Virus record (IMG/VR): IMGVR_UViG_3300031746_000184
Span: 1-22,754 of that record
Direction: 5' to 3' (one strand)
DNA length: 22,754 nt
Source: a virus
Shown here one piece after another: positions 10,743-18,690 of the stretch (position 1 is its first letter; every line of letters begins with the position of its first letter). A program made the position numbers and the translations under genes. Under the pieces are notes generated by a model. The model saw only the letters and a list, made by a program, of their open reading frames with translations, was not told the DNA's origin and searched no databases.

Positions 10743-11828
10743 ATGAGTAAAGTTGACAGGATTGTACAGGTTACAATTTTACGTGAGTCAAGACCAATAA
10801 GCCAAGCAGCATTTGACATGGTGCTCATCCTGGGAGAAAATCTTGAACTTCCAGAAGATGCGAGATATGCAGTTTTTTCTACCGACGACCTCACTGCTCT
10901 CGCTGCTGTTCTTGGTGAAACCCCAACAACGAAACCAGAATATCTGGCTGCAGAAGCTCTTGCTTCCCAGAGTCCAAGACCAATAAACTTCGCTGTCGGT
11001 AGGGTAGACAGTGAAGACGCCGACCATAAAGAAGCGCTTGCTGCTGTTCTATTAGAGAACAGTAACTTCTTTTATGTTGTTTGTGTAAGCAGAACTCAAG
11101 CGGATCAGGAAGCTGTTGCCGATTGGTGTAATTCAAACAGAAGAATATTCATTTCGGTAAGTGCTGGCAATGATGGAGATATTTTAGACCCCAATGACGA
11201 TACTTCATTACCTTTCTACATCAAGGATGAAGCTCTTGATAAAGCGTGCTGTATATACCACGCCGATGCAGCGACGGACTACATTGACGCTGGTCTTTCT
11301 GGGCTTTTGGCTGTTCGGAGGCCAGGTACATATACTCCAATGTTCAAAACGATAATTGGCTCTGGTGTTGATACGTTGACCACAACCGAACAGGGTATTT
11401 TGTTTGCAAAATACTGTTCCTCTTACGAGTCCGTTGGTGGACAAAATATATTACAAGAAGGTTGGGTCGGGACTGGAGAGTATCTGGATTTGATTATCTG
11501 GTTAGAATGGTTAAACTCAAAAATTCAGTCCAATGTCTACAGTCTTCTTGCAAAGAGTGAAAAGATTCCGTTTACTTCCGAGGGTCTTGGACTACTTGAG
11601 TCGGCAGTTCAACAAGTCCTTGAAATTGAACAATCGGCAAAGGCAATTTCTCCTGAGGAATTTGATGGGGATAATATTCAAACGGGTGGTTATCATACTT
11701 CCGTCCCGAAGGTAAGTGAACTATTACCGAACGACAAGCTTCTCAGAGTGGCAAAGGACATCAAGTTTACATGCTGGTATAACAATCCGATTCACCGTGT
11801 TCAAATAAATGGTGTCATCAAAATATAA
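10743..11828 (+). CDS. Contractile tail sheath protein (DUF3383)
   Basis: The 361-residue protein fits DUF3383, a sheath family of myoviruses. It opens with DRIVQVTILRESRPISQAAFDMVLIL, followed by DDLTALAAVLGETPTTKPEYLAAEALASQ and PINFAVGRVD (the TagX-like sheath core), a domain with FFYVVCVSRTQADQEAVADW, and a C-terminal region with VGTGEYLDLIIWLEWLNSKIQ, LARSEK-like loops and a closing strand IHRVQINGVIKI. Sheath subunits polymerise around the tube and contract to drive it through the envelope. AAGGAG (10731-10736) precedes ATG 10743. This gene identifies the phage as a myovirus. Its last strand would take part in inter-subunit weaving, as in other sheaths. Confidence 0.9.
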   Translation: MSKVDRIVQVTILRESRPISQAAFDMVLILGENLELPEDARYAVFSTDDLTALAAVLGETPTTKPEYLAAEALASQSPRPINFAVGRVDSEDADHKEALAAVLLENSNFFYVVCVSRTQADQEAVADWCNSNRRIFISVSAGNDGDILDPNDDTSLPFYIKDEALDKACCIYHADAATDYIDAGLSGLLAVRRPGTYTPMFKTIIGSGVDTLTTTEQGILFAKYCSSYESVGGQNILQEGWVGTGEYLDLIIWLEWLNSKIQSNVYSLLAKSEKIPFTSEGLGLLESAVQQVLEIEQSAKAISPEEFDGDNIQTGGYHTSVPKVSELLPNDKLLRVAKDIKFTCWYNNPIHRVQINGVIKI

Positions 11829-11882: not shown

Positions 11883-12332
11883 ATGTTGAGTCCAGGTATA
11901 GCGACCATAGACCCAGCGATGGTTGTAACGACCGTCGGAAAAGGAATTGTTGGTGGGTTTGCCGATGGTACTTTTATTAATGTTGAGTACACTGCTGATT
12001 TCTTTTCAAAGGTAACTGGTTCCGACGGCCTGACTACCAGAATTAAACAGAACGATTTCAGCGGTACAATCACATTGACGTTGAAGCAGTCGTCCCTATC
12101 AAATGATTTTTTGATGTCACTTGTAATCCTCGACCGTCAAGCGAATGCTGGTATTGTTCCAGTGTCTATCAAAGATTTACTTGGGACAACAAAAATGGTA
12201 ACTGGCTTTGCTTGGGTTCGAAAACCACCAGCATCGGTCTATAGTAAGAACGTCGAGAATCGTGAATGGATTTTGGATTGCGCAACATTAAGGATGTACG
12301 TTGGAGGAAACGTCCAGATTCCAGTGGTGTAA
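11883..12332 (+). CDS. Tail tube protein (DUF3277)
   Basis: The 149-residue protein directly follows the sheath gene and fits the DUF3277 inner tube family: residues about 18-45 read GKGIVGGFADGTFINVEYTA, then FSGTITLTLKQSSLSNDFLMSL, ending in WILDCATLRMYVGGNVQIPVV. It forms the hexameric rings of the tube through which DNA passes. A very strong ribosome site, GAAGGAGG, precedes ATG 11883, consistent with high production. A weak 5-bp hairpin (AACAA/TTGTT, 11836-11853) lies upstream in the sheath-tube gap. Confidence 0.85.
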   Translation: MLSPGIATIDPAMVVTTVGKGIVGGFADGTFINVEYTADFFSKVTGSDGLTTRIKQNDFSGTITLTLKQSSLSNDFLMSLVILDRQANAGIVPVSIKDLLGTTKMVTGFAWVRKPPASVYSKNVENREWILDCATLRMYVGGNVQIPVV

Positions 12333-12386: not shown

Positions 12387-12839
12387 ATGATTAAAAATTT
12401 AGAGAGGGTATTTACAAATGCTTCTGGAGGTACCGTTTCCGTTATCTCCAGTTCATTTCCGGCGAGACAATCCATTTCTGTAAGAACAAAACTGTTTGCT
12501 ATTATCCTTCCTTTCCTTTCAAAATTTACTGTCGCCGAGTTAAAGACTTTTTTGGATGGAAAAGGAATGGACGACCCAAACGTAGTTATCAAACTCCTTC
12601 CGGCATTTACAACTGTTCTATCAACTTGTGAGCTTGTTCCGTTAATTTTAGAACTACTTACATATACTCGTGTAAACGGTCTGGAAGTTTCCAAGGGAGA
12701 AATTTTTGATTCTGTGTTTACCGGAGAAGATCTTCTACTTATCCAGATTCTTAAATTTGTTATCATGGACGTCAATTCTTTTTTGGCACGAATAGAGGCT
12801 GGGAAAAATACTATAGAAGCCCCAAGCCTCGAAGAGTAA
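12387..12839 (+). CDS. Tail assembly chaperone, short (unshifted) form
   Basis: The 150-residue protein sits between tail tube and tape measure, the standard place for the G-type tail assembly chaperone that binds the tape measure and recruits tube subunits. It is helical, with FAIILPFLSKFTVAELKTFL (about 37-56), LLPAFTTVLSTCELVPLILELL and a hydrophobic IQILKFVIMDVN before its end. Residues are highly AT-coded but in line with neighbours. CAGGAGG precedes ATG 12387. Near its 3' end is a slippery T TTT TTG at 12779-12785 that leads into a second open frame, making the longer form. The chaperone family call is from position, fold-like pattern and the frameshift arrangement rather than a strong motif. 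Confidence 0.75.
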   Translation: MIKNLERVFTNASGGTVSVISSSFPARQSISVRTKLFAIILPFLSKFTVAELKTFLDGKGMDDPNVVIKLLPAFTTVLSTCELVPLILELLTYTRVNGLEVSKGEIFDSVFTGEDLLLIQILKFVIMDVNSFLARIEAGKNTIEAPSLEE

Positions 12840-13039
12840 GGAGTAGAATAGCTTCTATAGAATCTAATATCTCTCCGGATTTACTTGAGGAGAGTTTAAT
12901 TTGGGAAGCGGTTTTAAGTGGTAAAGTAACTCTTCATGAATTGGAAACAACATATTCTCTGGACGATTTGTATAGGTTAATTAGTTTCTTGAATATACAA
13001 AGTGATATTGAGCAAGAATCACTTGAAAGGATAGAGTAA
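12387..13039 (+). CDS. Tail assembly chaperone, long form by -1 frameshift (G-T-like)
   Basis: If ribosomes slip -1 at 12779-12785, translation continues from GGC 12785 in the -1 frame to TAA 13037-13039. The fused product is 217 residues: the first 133 are shared, followed by 84 new ones. The new part starts GTNRGWEKYY, has a basic patch (PKPRRVRSRI), then a helical acidic domain with LLEESLIWEAVLSGKVTLHEL and LDDLYRLISFLN. This frame has no ATG or GTG near its beginning and no other gene explains 12840-13043. Such a two-product chaperone is the rule in long-tailed phages. An unusual ATA start at 12848 behind AAGGAG (12838-12843) is the main alternative. Confidence 0.75.
12779..12830 (+). 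promoter_or_regulatory. -1 programmed ribosomal frameshift signal (slippery heptamer plus stem-loop)
   Basis: The heptamer T-TTT-TTG is in the correct register (zero frame TTT 12780, TTG 12783). After a 9-base spacer (12786-12794) comes a stem of GAGGCTGGG (12795-12803) with CCC-A-AGCCTC (12821-12830), nine pairs with one bulged A and a 17-base loop. Spacer and stem sizes are those typical of -1 signals. Confidence 0.75.
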
Positions 13040-13043
13040 TACA

Positions 13044-13418
13044 ATGGTTGAAAAAATTATAGTAGGGTTATTAATTTCTATAGTGTCTGCTTTATTTGTT
13101 TTTACTTTTATAACAAATCGGTCAAGAGTTCAAATTATAAAAGATGCAAATGGAATTGTAAACGAGGCAATAAAAACACACTTGTCTATAGAACATCAGT
13201 TAACGATGCATGCAATAGTAAAGGAGCATGTAGATTCATGTCAAGCGCCAACTAATTTTATAGAAGTACAAACAAAACTTGAACAGCATATTCAGGCATG
13301 TCCAGCACCAAAAAATATACAAGAGCTTCAAAATCAACTTAATATTATAAAGATATCACTCGTCTTTTTAGTTCGTAATGCTGGAGGAAACCCTGACGAT
13401 TTAGGATTGAGATTATAA
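13044..13418 (+). CDS. Membrane protein with tandem HxxxC repeats, unknown
   Basis: The 124-residue protein has an N-terminal membrane span (about residues 4-24, with VGLLISIVSALFVFTFI), a helical middle and a second hydrophobic stretch near 101-111. The middle contains two copies of an approximately 20-residue unit with H..xCxAPxN: H62/C66 (EHVDSCQAPTNF) and H82/C86 (QHIQACPAPKNI), an exact 20-residue period. This could be a metal site or a coiled-coil register; no family is recognised. It begins 4 bases after the shifted chaperone stop and ends just before the tape measure, so it is part of the tail operon. A membrane protein here is unusual. An alternative is a holin-like or superinfection-related protein, but no evidence separates these. 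Confidence 0.65.
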   Translation: MVEKIIVGLLISIVSALFVFTFITNRSRVQIIKDANGIVNEAIKTHLSIEHQLTMHAIVKEHVDSCQAPTNFIEVQTKLEQHIQACPAPKNIQELQNQLNIIKISLVFLVRNAGGNPDDLGLRL

Positions 13419-13419
13419 T

Positions 13420-14994
13420 ATGATAACTGTAAGAGAGCTTGTAAATTTAATTGGCTTTAAAATAGATGAAGCGGAATTTGCTTCTGCTCAAAAAAGAATG
13501 GATGGATTCCAGAAGAGCCTTGCCACTGCAGGAAATAAGATGCTCCTTGGAATTACCTTACCTTTTGTTGGGTTGGTTACGGCTGCTGTTAGAGCGGCAT
13601 CAAAACAGGACACAGCAACTGCTCAAGTAATACAAGCAATACAATCAACTGGTGGTGCAGCAAATAAAACAATAGAAGAATTACTGCAATCGGCGACCAG
13701 ACTTCAAAACGAAACACTCTTTGGAGATGATGATATTTTGGGTGGAGTTTCGGCGTCGTTATTAACTTTCCAAAATGTTACCGGAGAAGTTTTTGATAAA
13801 GCTCAAGAAGCAATTCTTGATGTAACCCAGCGAATGAGCGGAGCCAATGGTGGAATGCAAGCATTACACGGAACGACTTTACAGTTGGGGAAGGCTTTAA
13901 ATAATCCATTAATTGGGTTACAAGCGCTCGGGCGTGCGGGGATTCAGTTTACTGCTGAACAAAAGAAGGAGATAACGAACCTTGTCAAATCCGGTCAATT
14001 GCAGAAGGCTCAAATTGTCATGCTGGATTTAATCCATGCGAAGTTTGGAGGGAGTGCAAAGGCAGCGGCAGAAGCTTCATTTGGTTTTAAACAGCTTTCC
14101 AACGCTTTTGGTGATTTGTTAGAAGTCATTGGTACTTCGTTAAAACCGATTTTAAAACCATTAAGTGAATGGTTAAAGAAAATAACAATCGCTTTACAAA
14201 ACATTAACCCAGAACTTATTTCAGCTATTCTTCTTATTGGTGGATTGGCAGCAGCGATTGGTCCTTTACTAATAGTATTGTCTTCTTTGATTAAAGCAGG
14301 TATGATAATTCGAACTCTATTTGTTTCTATAAAAACCGTTTCCATGGCAACTGGGGTATCAATGGGGTTAATGTCTCTTAAATTTATTGCAATAGCTGCG
14401 GCAATTGCTGCGGTGATTGCTGCAATTACCTTACTTGTCGAAGATTTTCTTGTTTACAAACGAGGGGGAAAGAGTTTTATTGGTGAAATGATTAAATGGT
14501 GGAATAAATTAAGTGAAGTAATGGGATTAAAAAACATTGGAGAGGCATGGCACGAATTCTTTTTTAATTTAGGAAGTTGGCTTCATGGATTTATTACTGA
14601 CAAATGGATTCCATTTTGGGAAAATGCAGGAGCGGGATTATATGCTGTTATACAAAAGATAGGAGAATGGTGGGATACCATCTGGGATAAAATTGGATGG
14701 GGTCTTGACAAGATGAAAATAGTTGTAGATGCTTTACAAAGGTTTTCATCGAGTGCTCCAGCTATAACTGATTTTGACCCAGAGCTCGGAGGAAAGAATT
14801 TGGCGTTACTTGAAAGATTAAATGCTCCTCAAGAAAAAACAATAAAAATTGATGCAACAGTAAATACTTATGTACCAGAAGGGACAACAGCACAAGCAAC
14901 TGAATCAATAAGAAAAACGGCTGAAGATGTATATAGTGTATTCATGAGTAAACTGACAAGACAGTTGTCTTATAGTGTTCCGATGAAAGAATAA
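13420..14994 (+). CDS. Tail tape measure protein
   Basis: The 524-residue protein has tape-measure character: N-terminal VNLIGFKIDEAEFASAQKRM with amphipathic helices, Ala/Gln-rich helical stretches (about 55-240), two hydrophobic segments (about 266-291 and 321-346, rich in Ile/Ala) that can enter the host membrane during ejection, and a Trp-rich region (about 360-430, with WW and WDTIW). The length predicts a tail of roughly 79 nm at the common rule of about 0.15 nm per residue, an estimate only. The family is known to set tail length by spanning the tube and to be bound by the chaperone encoded just upstream. The start follows the previous stop by 1 base and the end is 2 bases before the next gene. 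Confidence 0.88.
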   Translation: MITVRELVNLIGFKIDEAEFASAQKRMDGFQKSLATAGNKMLLGITLPFVGLVTAAVRAASKQDTATAQVIQAIQSTGGAANKTIEELLQSATRLQNETLFGDDDILGGVSASLLTFQNVTGEVFDKAQEAILDVTQRMSGANGGMQALHGTTLQLGKALNNPLIGLQALGRAGIQFTAEQKKEITNLVKSGQLQKAQIVMLDLIHAKFGGSAKAAAEASFGFKQLSNAFGDLLEVIGTSLKPILKPLSEWLKKITIALQNINPELISAILLIGGLAAAIGPLLIVLSSLIKAGMIIRTLFVSIKTVSMATGVSMGLMSLKFIAIAAAIAAVIAAITLLVEDFLVYKRGGKSFIGEMIKWWNKLSEVMGLKNIGEAWHEFFFNLGSWLHGFITDKWIPFWENAGAGLYAVIQKIGEWWDTIWDKIGWGLDKMKIVVDALQRFSSSAPAITDFDPELGGKNLALLERLNAPQEKTIKIDATVNTYVPEGTTAQATESIRKTAEDVYSVFMSKLTRQLSYSVPMKE

Positions 14995-16974: not shown

Positions 16975-17680
16975 CTCTGGAGAGTTTATTAAAGTCATTG
17001 AAAATATTGTATTAAATATACTTAATGGTTCTATTCATACTTGCCTTCCAGGGAAAATAACTTCTTATGATTCTAAGACACGGAAGGCAACGGTTCAACC
17101 ATTAATAAAAAAGAAATATCTGGACGGAACAACTGCAAGTTATAAACCGGTTGAAGCCGTTCCAGTTTTATTTTTTGGTATTGGAAACAGTGGAATAAGG
17201 CTTCCTGAAAGCCAATACAAAGGTAAATCGGTTTTATTAGTTGTCTCGGAGCGATCGTTAGATACATGGCTTGTTGGTAATGGGAAAGAGGTTACTCCTC
17301 AGTCAAATAGAAAATTTGATATTTCTGATTGTATTGCTATTATATCTCTAAATACATTTTCCAATAAAGATATTGGAGGTAATAATTTAGAGGTTTATTA
17401 TAAAGACAGTGTAATTAGAATAAAACCAAATGGAGATATTGAGCTTGGATTAAATACTTTCAAAAAATTAATAAATGAAAGCTTTGCTGACTTGTTTGAC
17501 AATCATGTTCATACTGTTTCCGTTGCTGGGACTCCTTTGGCACAGACTGGAGTAACTTCGAGTCCTTCAAAACTAACGGGTATTCTTCCAGTGGCTGTTC
17601 CAGCGGTTCCGACAGTTCAACATTTATTTAATGATAGTATTATGGATAATCATAAGACAGAAAAAGTAAAGGCTGAATAA
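16967..17680 (+). CDS. Baseplate spike / central puncturing protein (gp138/gpV-like)
   Basis: The 237-residue protein begins with a helix, then an OB-fold-like domain: HTCLPGKITSYDSKTRKATVQPLI (residues about 23-46, key piece GKITSYDSKTRKATVQPL), VPVLFFGIGNSGIRLP and GKSVLLVVSERSLDTWLVG. A beta-stalk segment (NLEVYYKDSVIRIKPNGDI) follows, then NHVHTVSVAG near residue 177, an HxH motif of the kind that binds iron at the tip of gpV and gp138 spikes. Such trimeric spikes pierce the outer membrane. It sits between hub and receptor-region genes as expected. The C-terminal part with many Pro/Val/Thr residues after HVHT is longer than a minimal spike tip. Confidence 0.78.
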   Translation: MSNSGEFIKVIENIVLNILNGSIHTCLPGKITSYDSKTRKATVQPLIKKKYLDGTTASYKPVEAVPVLFFGIGNSGIRLPESQYKGKSVLLVVSERSLDTWLVGNGKEVTPQSNRKFDISDCIAIISLNTFSNKDIGGNNLEVYYKDSVIRIKPNGDIELGLNTFKKLINESFADLFDNHVHTVSVAGTPLAQTGVTSSPSKLTGILPVAVPAVPTVQHLFNDSIMDNHKTEKVKAE

Positions 17681-18411
17681 TGGATTACAAGTTTACTGAA
17701 AAATTGCCGGAAAACCGCTTGCTCTGGGATAAGTGCCTGATAAGTTCAGACGGAGTATATGCAATAGCTTTAGGAGAAAATCAATTATATATATCCAATA
17801 ATTCCGGGGATACATGGGTGAGGCCTGCGGATACTTTGATTTTTAATTTTATTGATTATATAGCAATAGATAAATCAGGTCAATATATGTTCGCCGCCAG
17901 TATTGGAATAACAGAAGAAAATGGAAAATTATATCTATCTGTTAACTATGGAGTAAATTGGACTGAGATAACAACCTGGCCAGGATACGAGGATGGAAAA
18001 ATAATAGAGGGAATAGGTATAAATAGTAATGGTACGGAAATTTTTATCTGTTATCATACTGACGTAGATTATCCAAACGGTGAAACCTTTTATTACAGTT
18101 CCGTAAATTTGGGAGTAGACTGGGTTGAACTTACGGTGCCTTCAGTAATCTCTGAGGGTAATGCCCAGGCGTGGTTTTTTGCGAACGAGGACTCAACGAT
18201 AATACATATCTATTATGAATATGGAGTTTTCCGTTCCGACAATCACGGTACGGATTGGACTGCCATATATGTTGCCTCCTCGATGGGGAAAGAGGGAATG
18301 TTTTCCGTCAGTGAGGACGGAGTGACAATGTTAATAAACGATTATAACATATTATATTTATCAGTAAACAGCGGTGCGGATTGGGTTGAACTTCCCGATT
18401 TGCTGTTATAG
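17680..18411 (+). CDS. Asp-box (BNR) beta-propeller protein, first part
   Basis: The 243-residue protein contains five Asp-box-like repeats of the type S-x-x-x-G-x-x-W: SNNSGDTW (39-46), SVNYGVNW (87-94), SVNLGVDW (141-148), SDNHGTDW (186-193) and SVNSGADW (228-235), spaced about 42-54 residues apart. Asp boxes mark blades of sialidase/sortilin-type propellers, often carbohydrate-binding, so a receptor-binding or tail-fibre role is plausible. It has no catalytic signature I can recognise. It starts on the spike stop (TAATG) and ends at TAG 18409-18411; a further Asp-box ORF follows in the same frame after two stops, so it is probably the first part of a larger propeller. Confidence 0.7.
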   Translation: MDYKFTEKLPENRLLWDKCLISSDGVYAIALGENQLYISNNSGDTWVRPADTLIFNFIDYIAIDKSGQYMFAASIGITEENGKLYLSVNYGVNWTEITTWPGYEDGKIIEGIGINSNGTEIFICYHTDVDYPNGETFYYSSVNLGVDWVELTVPSVISEGNAQAWFFANEDSTIIHIYYEYGVFRSDNHGTDWTAIYVASSMGKEGMFSVSEDGVTMLINDYNILYLSVNSGADWVELPDLLL

Positions 18412-18420
18412 GAATAATTT

Positions 18421-18690
18421 ATGCCAACAGAACCGAACGATGTTGTTACTTGTAAAGTGAACCTCGATGGGACAAAGTTATTTGTTTTGCGATGGTATAA
18501 ACTATTTGTATCTTTTGATAACGGAGAAACATGGACGGAAGTGACAAATCTACCAGAAGTTCCGGAACAAATAATAGTTCCTGGTAATCCTACGATTACT
18601 TGGAATCACTTATGGAAATCTATGGATGCCAGCGATGATGGTAAAAAATTAATAGCTGCAATAAAAGCTTTTGCGGTTATAGGGGATTAA
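18421..18690 (+). CDS. Asp-box propeller, second part (same frame, after two stop codons)
   Basis: The 89-residue product lies in the same frame as the upstream propeller gene, after TAG 18409 and TAA 18415. It has a sixth Asp box, SFDNGETW (31-38). Counting through the stops gives 50 residues from the fifth box, the same period as within the first gene. It has a modest ribosome site (TAGGA, 18409-18413) and its own ATG 18421, so it may be separately translated as a sixth blade. Whether this is a natural split or a decayed fusion cannot be decided here. KLIAAIKAFAVIGD closes it. Confidence 0.55.
   Translation: MPTEPNDVVTCKVNLDGTKLFVLRWYKLFVSFDNGETWTEVTNLPEVPEQIIVPGNPTITWNHLWKSMDASDDGKKLIAAIKAFAVIGD

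Follow-up and report, generated by a model that had tools for sequence, protein, structure and literature searches.

Frameshifting in the tail assembly chaperones of tailed phages, including lambda gpG/gpGT, has been reviewed (PMC5009743). The locus described here lies in a virus record of IMG/VR that was analysed over its full length of 22,754 bases (the window, i.e., the whole stretch of DNA analysed) and resembles that of lambda in that the chaperone gene is located between the tube and tape measure genes, with a −1 shift near the 3′ end (predicted for the window) and a short and a long form as products. In lambda the shift is a low-frequency event, as is presumed for the window. The lambda slip site is G GGA AAG, and the lambda chaperone has no detectable sequence relationship here to that of the window.

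The same −1 shift in the chaperone was reported in December 2025 for Vandenendeviridae and Andersonviridae (Pseudomonas phage Adele), with GTTTTT as the slip motif (PMC12846349). Phages of these families share with the window sheath relatives, gene order and a T-rich −1 shift site near the end of the short chaperone product (TAC-N), followed by an extension which needs no start codon, and the chaperones of PAK_P1 and REP8 match the same family, Phage_TAC_15. However, the sites differ, being GTTTTT there (GTT TTT T at the corresponding site of PAK_P1, T TTT TTC in REP8) and T TTT TTG with a nine-pair hairpin in the window. The window phage is also distant from them, in that a tblastn search of the phage collection with its chaperone returned no match. 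The device is already known from many tailed phages and within the Phage_TAC_15 chaperone family; what the window contributes is a canonical site, together with a hairpin, in a lineage that is distant and unclassified.

The slip site and the −1 frame

The window is a myovirus fragment which encodes the module for the head and the contractile tail. The chaperone gene has the tube gene upstream and the tape measure gene downstream, with one small ORF intervening before the latter (Table 1). The product of this small ORF carries a membrane helix at its N-terminus, and the ORF is kept in the nearest relatives (dN/dS 0.24); in many other relatives, unlike in the window, the tape measure ORF follows directly after the chaperone locus. 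Elsewhere in the window, the ORFs 17680–18411 and 18421–18690 lie in the same frame with two stops between them, and both resemble portions of a single repeat protein with SGDTW/NGETW motifs (the first also matches Sortilin-Vps10 exactly at the cut-off); they may be read as two proteins or as a fibre-like gene that is broken.

Table 1. Positions of the chaperone locus and its neighbours in the window
Feature	Position	Strand	Remark
Sheath gene (DUF3383)	10743–11828		
Tail tube gene	11883–12332		
Tail assembly chaperone, short product (TAC-N)	12387–12839	+	150 aa; Pfam PF21822 match
Slippery heptamer T TTT TTG	12779–12785	+	In register with ORF 12387–12839
Putative −1 frame extension (TAC-C)	12785–13039	+	84 codons and stop; would be fused to residues 1–133
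Spacer	12786–12794	+	9 nt
Hairpin, possible stimulator	12795–12830	+	12795–12803 pairs with 12821–12823 and 12825–12830; A12824 bulged
AAGGAG and ATA 12848, non-standard start	12838–12850	+	Rejected
Small ORF	13044–13418		124 aa; between chaperone and tape measure
Tape measure gene	13420–14994		Baseplate genes next

The heptamer lies 17 codons ahead of the chaperone stop codon and comprises the codons TTT (12780–12782) and TTG (12783–12785), so that residues 131–133 at the slip site are S-F-L and tandem slippage predicts the junction peptide SFLGTNR. The −1 frame has no stops from 12755 and is open through 13036, with the stop at 13037–13039; dinucleotide shuffling produced an open frame of 84 codons in 10 of 20,000 sequences. 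In-register X XXY YYZ heptamers number 47 over the 7,170 codon positions of the ORFs in the window, and only the one at 12779–12785 has a −1 frame reaching more than 5 nt past the stop of its own ORF, which it exceeds by 200 nt. The −1 product matches phrog_3976 with E 2e-6. On re-reading, all positions and counts of the initial annotation proved correct, including the register of T TTT TTG with the chaperone ORF, the fusion junction at residues 133/134 and the −1 frame open to 13039 with 84 added residues. Its statement that the −1 frame has no normal start holds for ATG and GTG, neither of which occurs in this frame of the window, but needs amending for TTG, which occurs at 12941, 12968 and 12989, each time within the conserved domain.

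A sheath search yielded two viral contigs with 85% identity, which recur as L011/L012 among the loci described below. The closest relatives (L001/L011/L012) carry T TTT TTA at the homologous position, and the −1 product of the window is 70% identical to that of its nearest relative. In the −1 frame past the zero-frame stop, the changes by codon position amount to 12/8/25 and dN/dS is 0.10, the latter from the closest pair as a single independent comparison, which together read as a clear coding signature at the sequence level; the other two frames of this stretch contain 8–10 stops. The zero-frame synonymous divergence (pS) is 0.60 ahead of the slip site and drops to 0.17 in the overlap, as would be expected for double coding, with the overlap comprising 15 codons only.

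Related loci and other origins of a long product

Because the chaperone sequence alone found no relatives, including a search of viral contigs with the single chaperone protein, an alignment of the sheath was chosen as bait and gave 80 loci, to which the window and three named phages were added for a total of 84; a sheath scan of prokaryote genomes gave no relative. A profile of the −1 product was then run on all three forward frames of the 84 loci. It was seeded with loci known to show the −1 arrangement, a possible source of bias, while the frame of the other loci was not imposed. The profile matched 69 of the 84 loci, and 67 of these matches were in frame −1 relative to the chaperone ORF that they overlap. 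The remaining two, L022 (E 9e-3) and L088 (E 9e-4), matched in the opposite relative frame and were excluded from the −1 counts, the L022 match being too weak to trust.

Clustering at about 80% identity gave 44 non-redundant clusters, and in 33 of them a canonical heptamer occupies the homologous ...(E)VN(F/Y)xxFF codons. In 29 of these 33 the heptamer is T TTT TTN, and the other four are not poly-T (A AAT TTT twice, G GGT TTT and C CCT TTC). The heptamer density of the overlap is 4.7 times that of the remainder of these ORFs (45/1483 vs. 33/5134). The named phages REP8 (Felixounavirus), RHph_Y17, ST11-OXA48phi15.1, Meifeng, W70 (Vequintavirinae) and Brigit likewise have T TTT TTC or T TTT TTG at the corresponding position. 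Alignment of related phages, named by the initial annotation as a check on the conservation of both frames, thus bears it out. The slip site is not invariant across the family, because in 10 of the 44 clusters the overlap lacks a canonical heptamer although the −1 arrangement is present, and in an eleventh (L063) the only canonical heptamer lies away from the site.

Several of the sites outside the canonical set can be described. One clade with the same −1 extension (L052, L053, L056, L057, L060, L061, L065 and L070, joined by L071, L072, L078 and L089) has, where read out, the site N CTT TTT ACG (N = any base; in L057 near 5950), at which only the Phe tRNA would be able to re-pair after a −1 slip. 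G GAT TTT occurs at the slip position in L033, L063 and L069, and C CTT TTT in the Acinetobacter phage L005. In L004 (6680–6889), L098 (6176–6409) and L088 (5684–5938), which are phage D6E, Aeribacillus phage AP45 and one further prophage contig, the downstream frame is +1 (or −2) relative to the preceding small ORF, which suggests from sequence that the type of shift changed in this branch. Tentatively, and with rather less than even confidence, the recoding signal may have drifted within one chaperone family between canonical tandem slippage, one-tRNA slippage (N CTT TTT ACG, G GAT TTT) and forward shifting (Gram-positive phages D6E and AP45). If so, selection would keep the long product rather than the type of shift, with the window as one canonical point.

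A long product could also arise if RNA polymerase slipped on T6 and produced mRNAs one base longer or shorter, so that the extension would stem from transcription errors. The window has six consecutive T residues and several relatives have longer runs, which speaks for this explanation. However, T6 is a short run for polymerase slippage, and the four non-poly-T clusters keep the tandem-tRNA register, which argues for tandem tRNA slippage and makes an origin in transcription very improbable.

Slightly less probable still is that the −1 frame is a gene in its own right, translated by re-initiation at ATA 12848 or at a TTG. The sequence AAGGAG (12838–12843) does stand 4 nt ahead of this ATA, and in relatives such as Felixounavirus REP8 the downstream frame is annotated as its own CDS from an ATG. 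The initial annotation had singled out both initiation at ATA 12848 and a downstream frame with its own start in relatives as findings that would speak against a frameshift. Upon checking, the Shine-Dalgarno-like AAGGAG was absent at the homologous place in L001/L011; initiation at ATA 12848 is therefore not conserved, and this start was rejected. In addition, the −1 frame remains both open and similar ahead of ATA 12848, relatives differ in where the first start codon lies, and the only candidate starts in the window, the TTG codons, lie within the conserved domain. L055 lacks ATG, GTG and TTG altogether in its −1 frame, which excludes ordinary re-initiation in that locus.

A sequencing or assembly error in what is truly a single long ORF, where a one-base indel would fuse both frames, is refuted to the point of being negligible by the comparison with 67 related loci on independent contigs and with isolate phage genomes, which are broken at the same codons.

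The hairpin after the slip site

The hairpin has a stem of nine pairs and a loop of 17 nt, and the 9-base spacer, nine pairs and one bulge of the initial annotation were recovered as described. The stem is the minimum-energy fold in the 45, 49 and 65 nt stretches tested with the slip site excluded, with an energy of −12.8 to −14.6 kcal/mol and z of about −2.5 to −2.9; 3–4 of 200 shuffles fold as well. A fold of 82 nt with the T run included gives another structure rather than the same stem.

All nine pairs are retained in L011 via two G-U changes, both of which are one-sided substitutions with no true covariation, and a search of the corresponding position in L013/L014 (52% sheath identity) did not recover the stem. 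The regions 3′ of the canonical slip sites have a median z of −1.23 vs. −0.29 for control stretches (Mann-Whitney p 6e-4), and z is below −2 in 10 of 33. Based on its absence from L013/L014 and on these 10 of 33 regions, the hairpin is regarded as a plausible local stimulator of the shift, common only to the closest relatives. By these comparisons it is the weakest part of the frameshift signal and not a conserved element.

Chaperone fold and a two-product model

TAC-N matches Pfam PF21822 (Phage_TAC_15) with 27.7 bits (cut-off 22), and so do all 36 of the 36 aligned TAC-N relatives. The AlphaFold model of TAC-N (pLDDT 81) consists of a beta hairpin and helices, the last of which (115–142) covers the slip site at residue 133. 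Foldseek of this model against the PDB gave no significant match; re-ranking of 593 Foldseek candidates by VIA-align placed 5ir0 (Z 9.4, rmsd 2.8 over 98 residues), 3klu (Z 6.3) and 2ob9 (Z 5.0) at the top, the two scores below 8 being merely suggestive when taken alone. The entry 2ob9 is titled as the HK97 tail assembly chaperone (gp13), and the annotation of a homologous Klebsiella phage gene draws on its likeness to ORF19 of 5ir0. 3klu (YqbN) and 5ir0 (V. cholerae ORF19) are presumably tail chaperones as well, so that among the Foldseek candidates the predicted fold is best matched by tail assembly chaperones, solved or likely, at only 9–10% sequence identity.

The extension is modelled as a small helical domain (pLDDT 80). 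A fold search with this C-terminal domain in BFVD gave nothing below E 0.001, with short uncharacterized phage ORFs at the top. Families phrog_3976, phrog_4364 and phrog_16972, all of 'unknown function', and short BFVD entries such as A0A077KAX1 match the −1 extension, which probably makes them C-terminal halves of frameshifted chaperones that went unrecognised and were annotated as genes of their own.

The open frame, its selection and the conservation of the site support the central claim of the initial annotation, a programmed −1 signal in the chaperone gene, and it is very probable that a −1 frameshift on T TTT TTG yields both a short chaperone and a fusion. A minority of ribosomes would slip into the −1 frame on U UUU UUG, with tRNA-Phe and tRNA-Leu re-pairing in tandem from UUU UUG to UUU UUU, as fits the heptamer rule, possibly assisted by the hairpin 9 nt downstream. 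Translation of 84 further codons would then give TAC-NC (133 + 84 = 217 aa) beside TAC-N of 150 aa. By analogy with lambda gpG/gpGT (PMC5009743), from which the two-product role is taken, many short and few long copies may coat the tape measure protein, and the C-terminal extension may recruit tube subunits.

For the window, the predicted frameshift corrects the annotation and accounts for the stretch 12840–13043, which the initial annotation had explained in the same way as otherwise gene-free: positions 12840–13039 are the C-terminal part of the long chaperone rather than intergenic. A number of small phage ORFs listed as 'uncharacterized' resemble −1 extensions of this type. The family offers a natural series of slip sites within one protein family, which is usable for studying which sites interchange.
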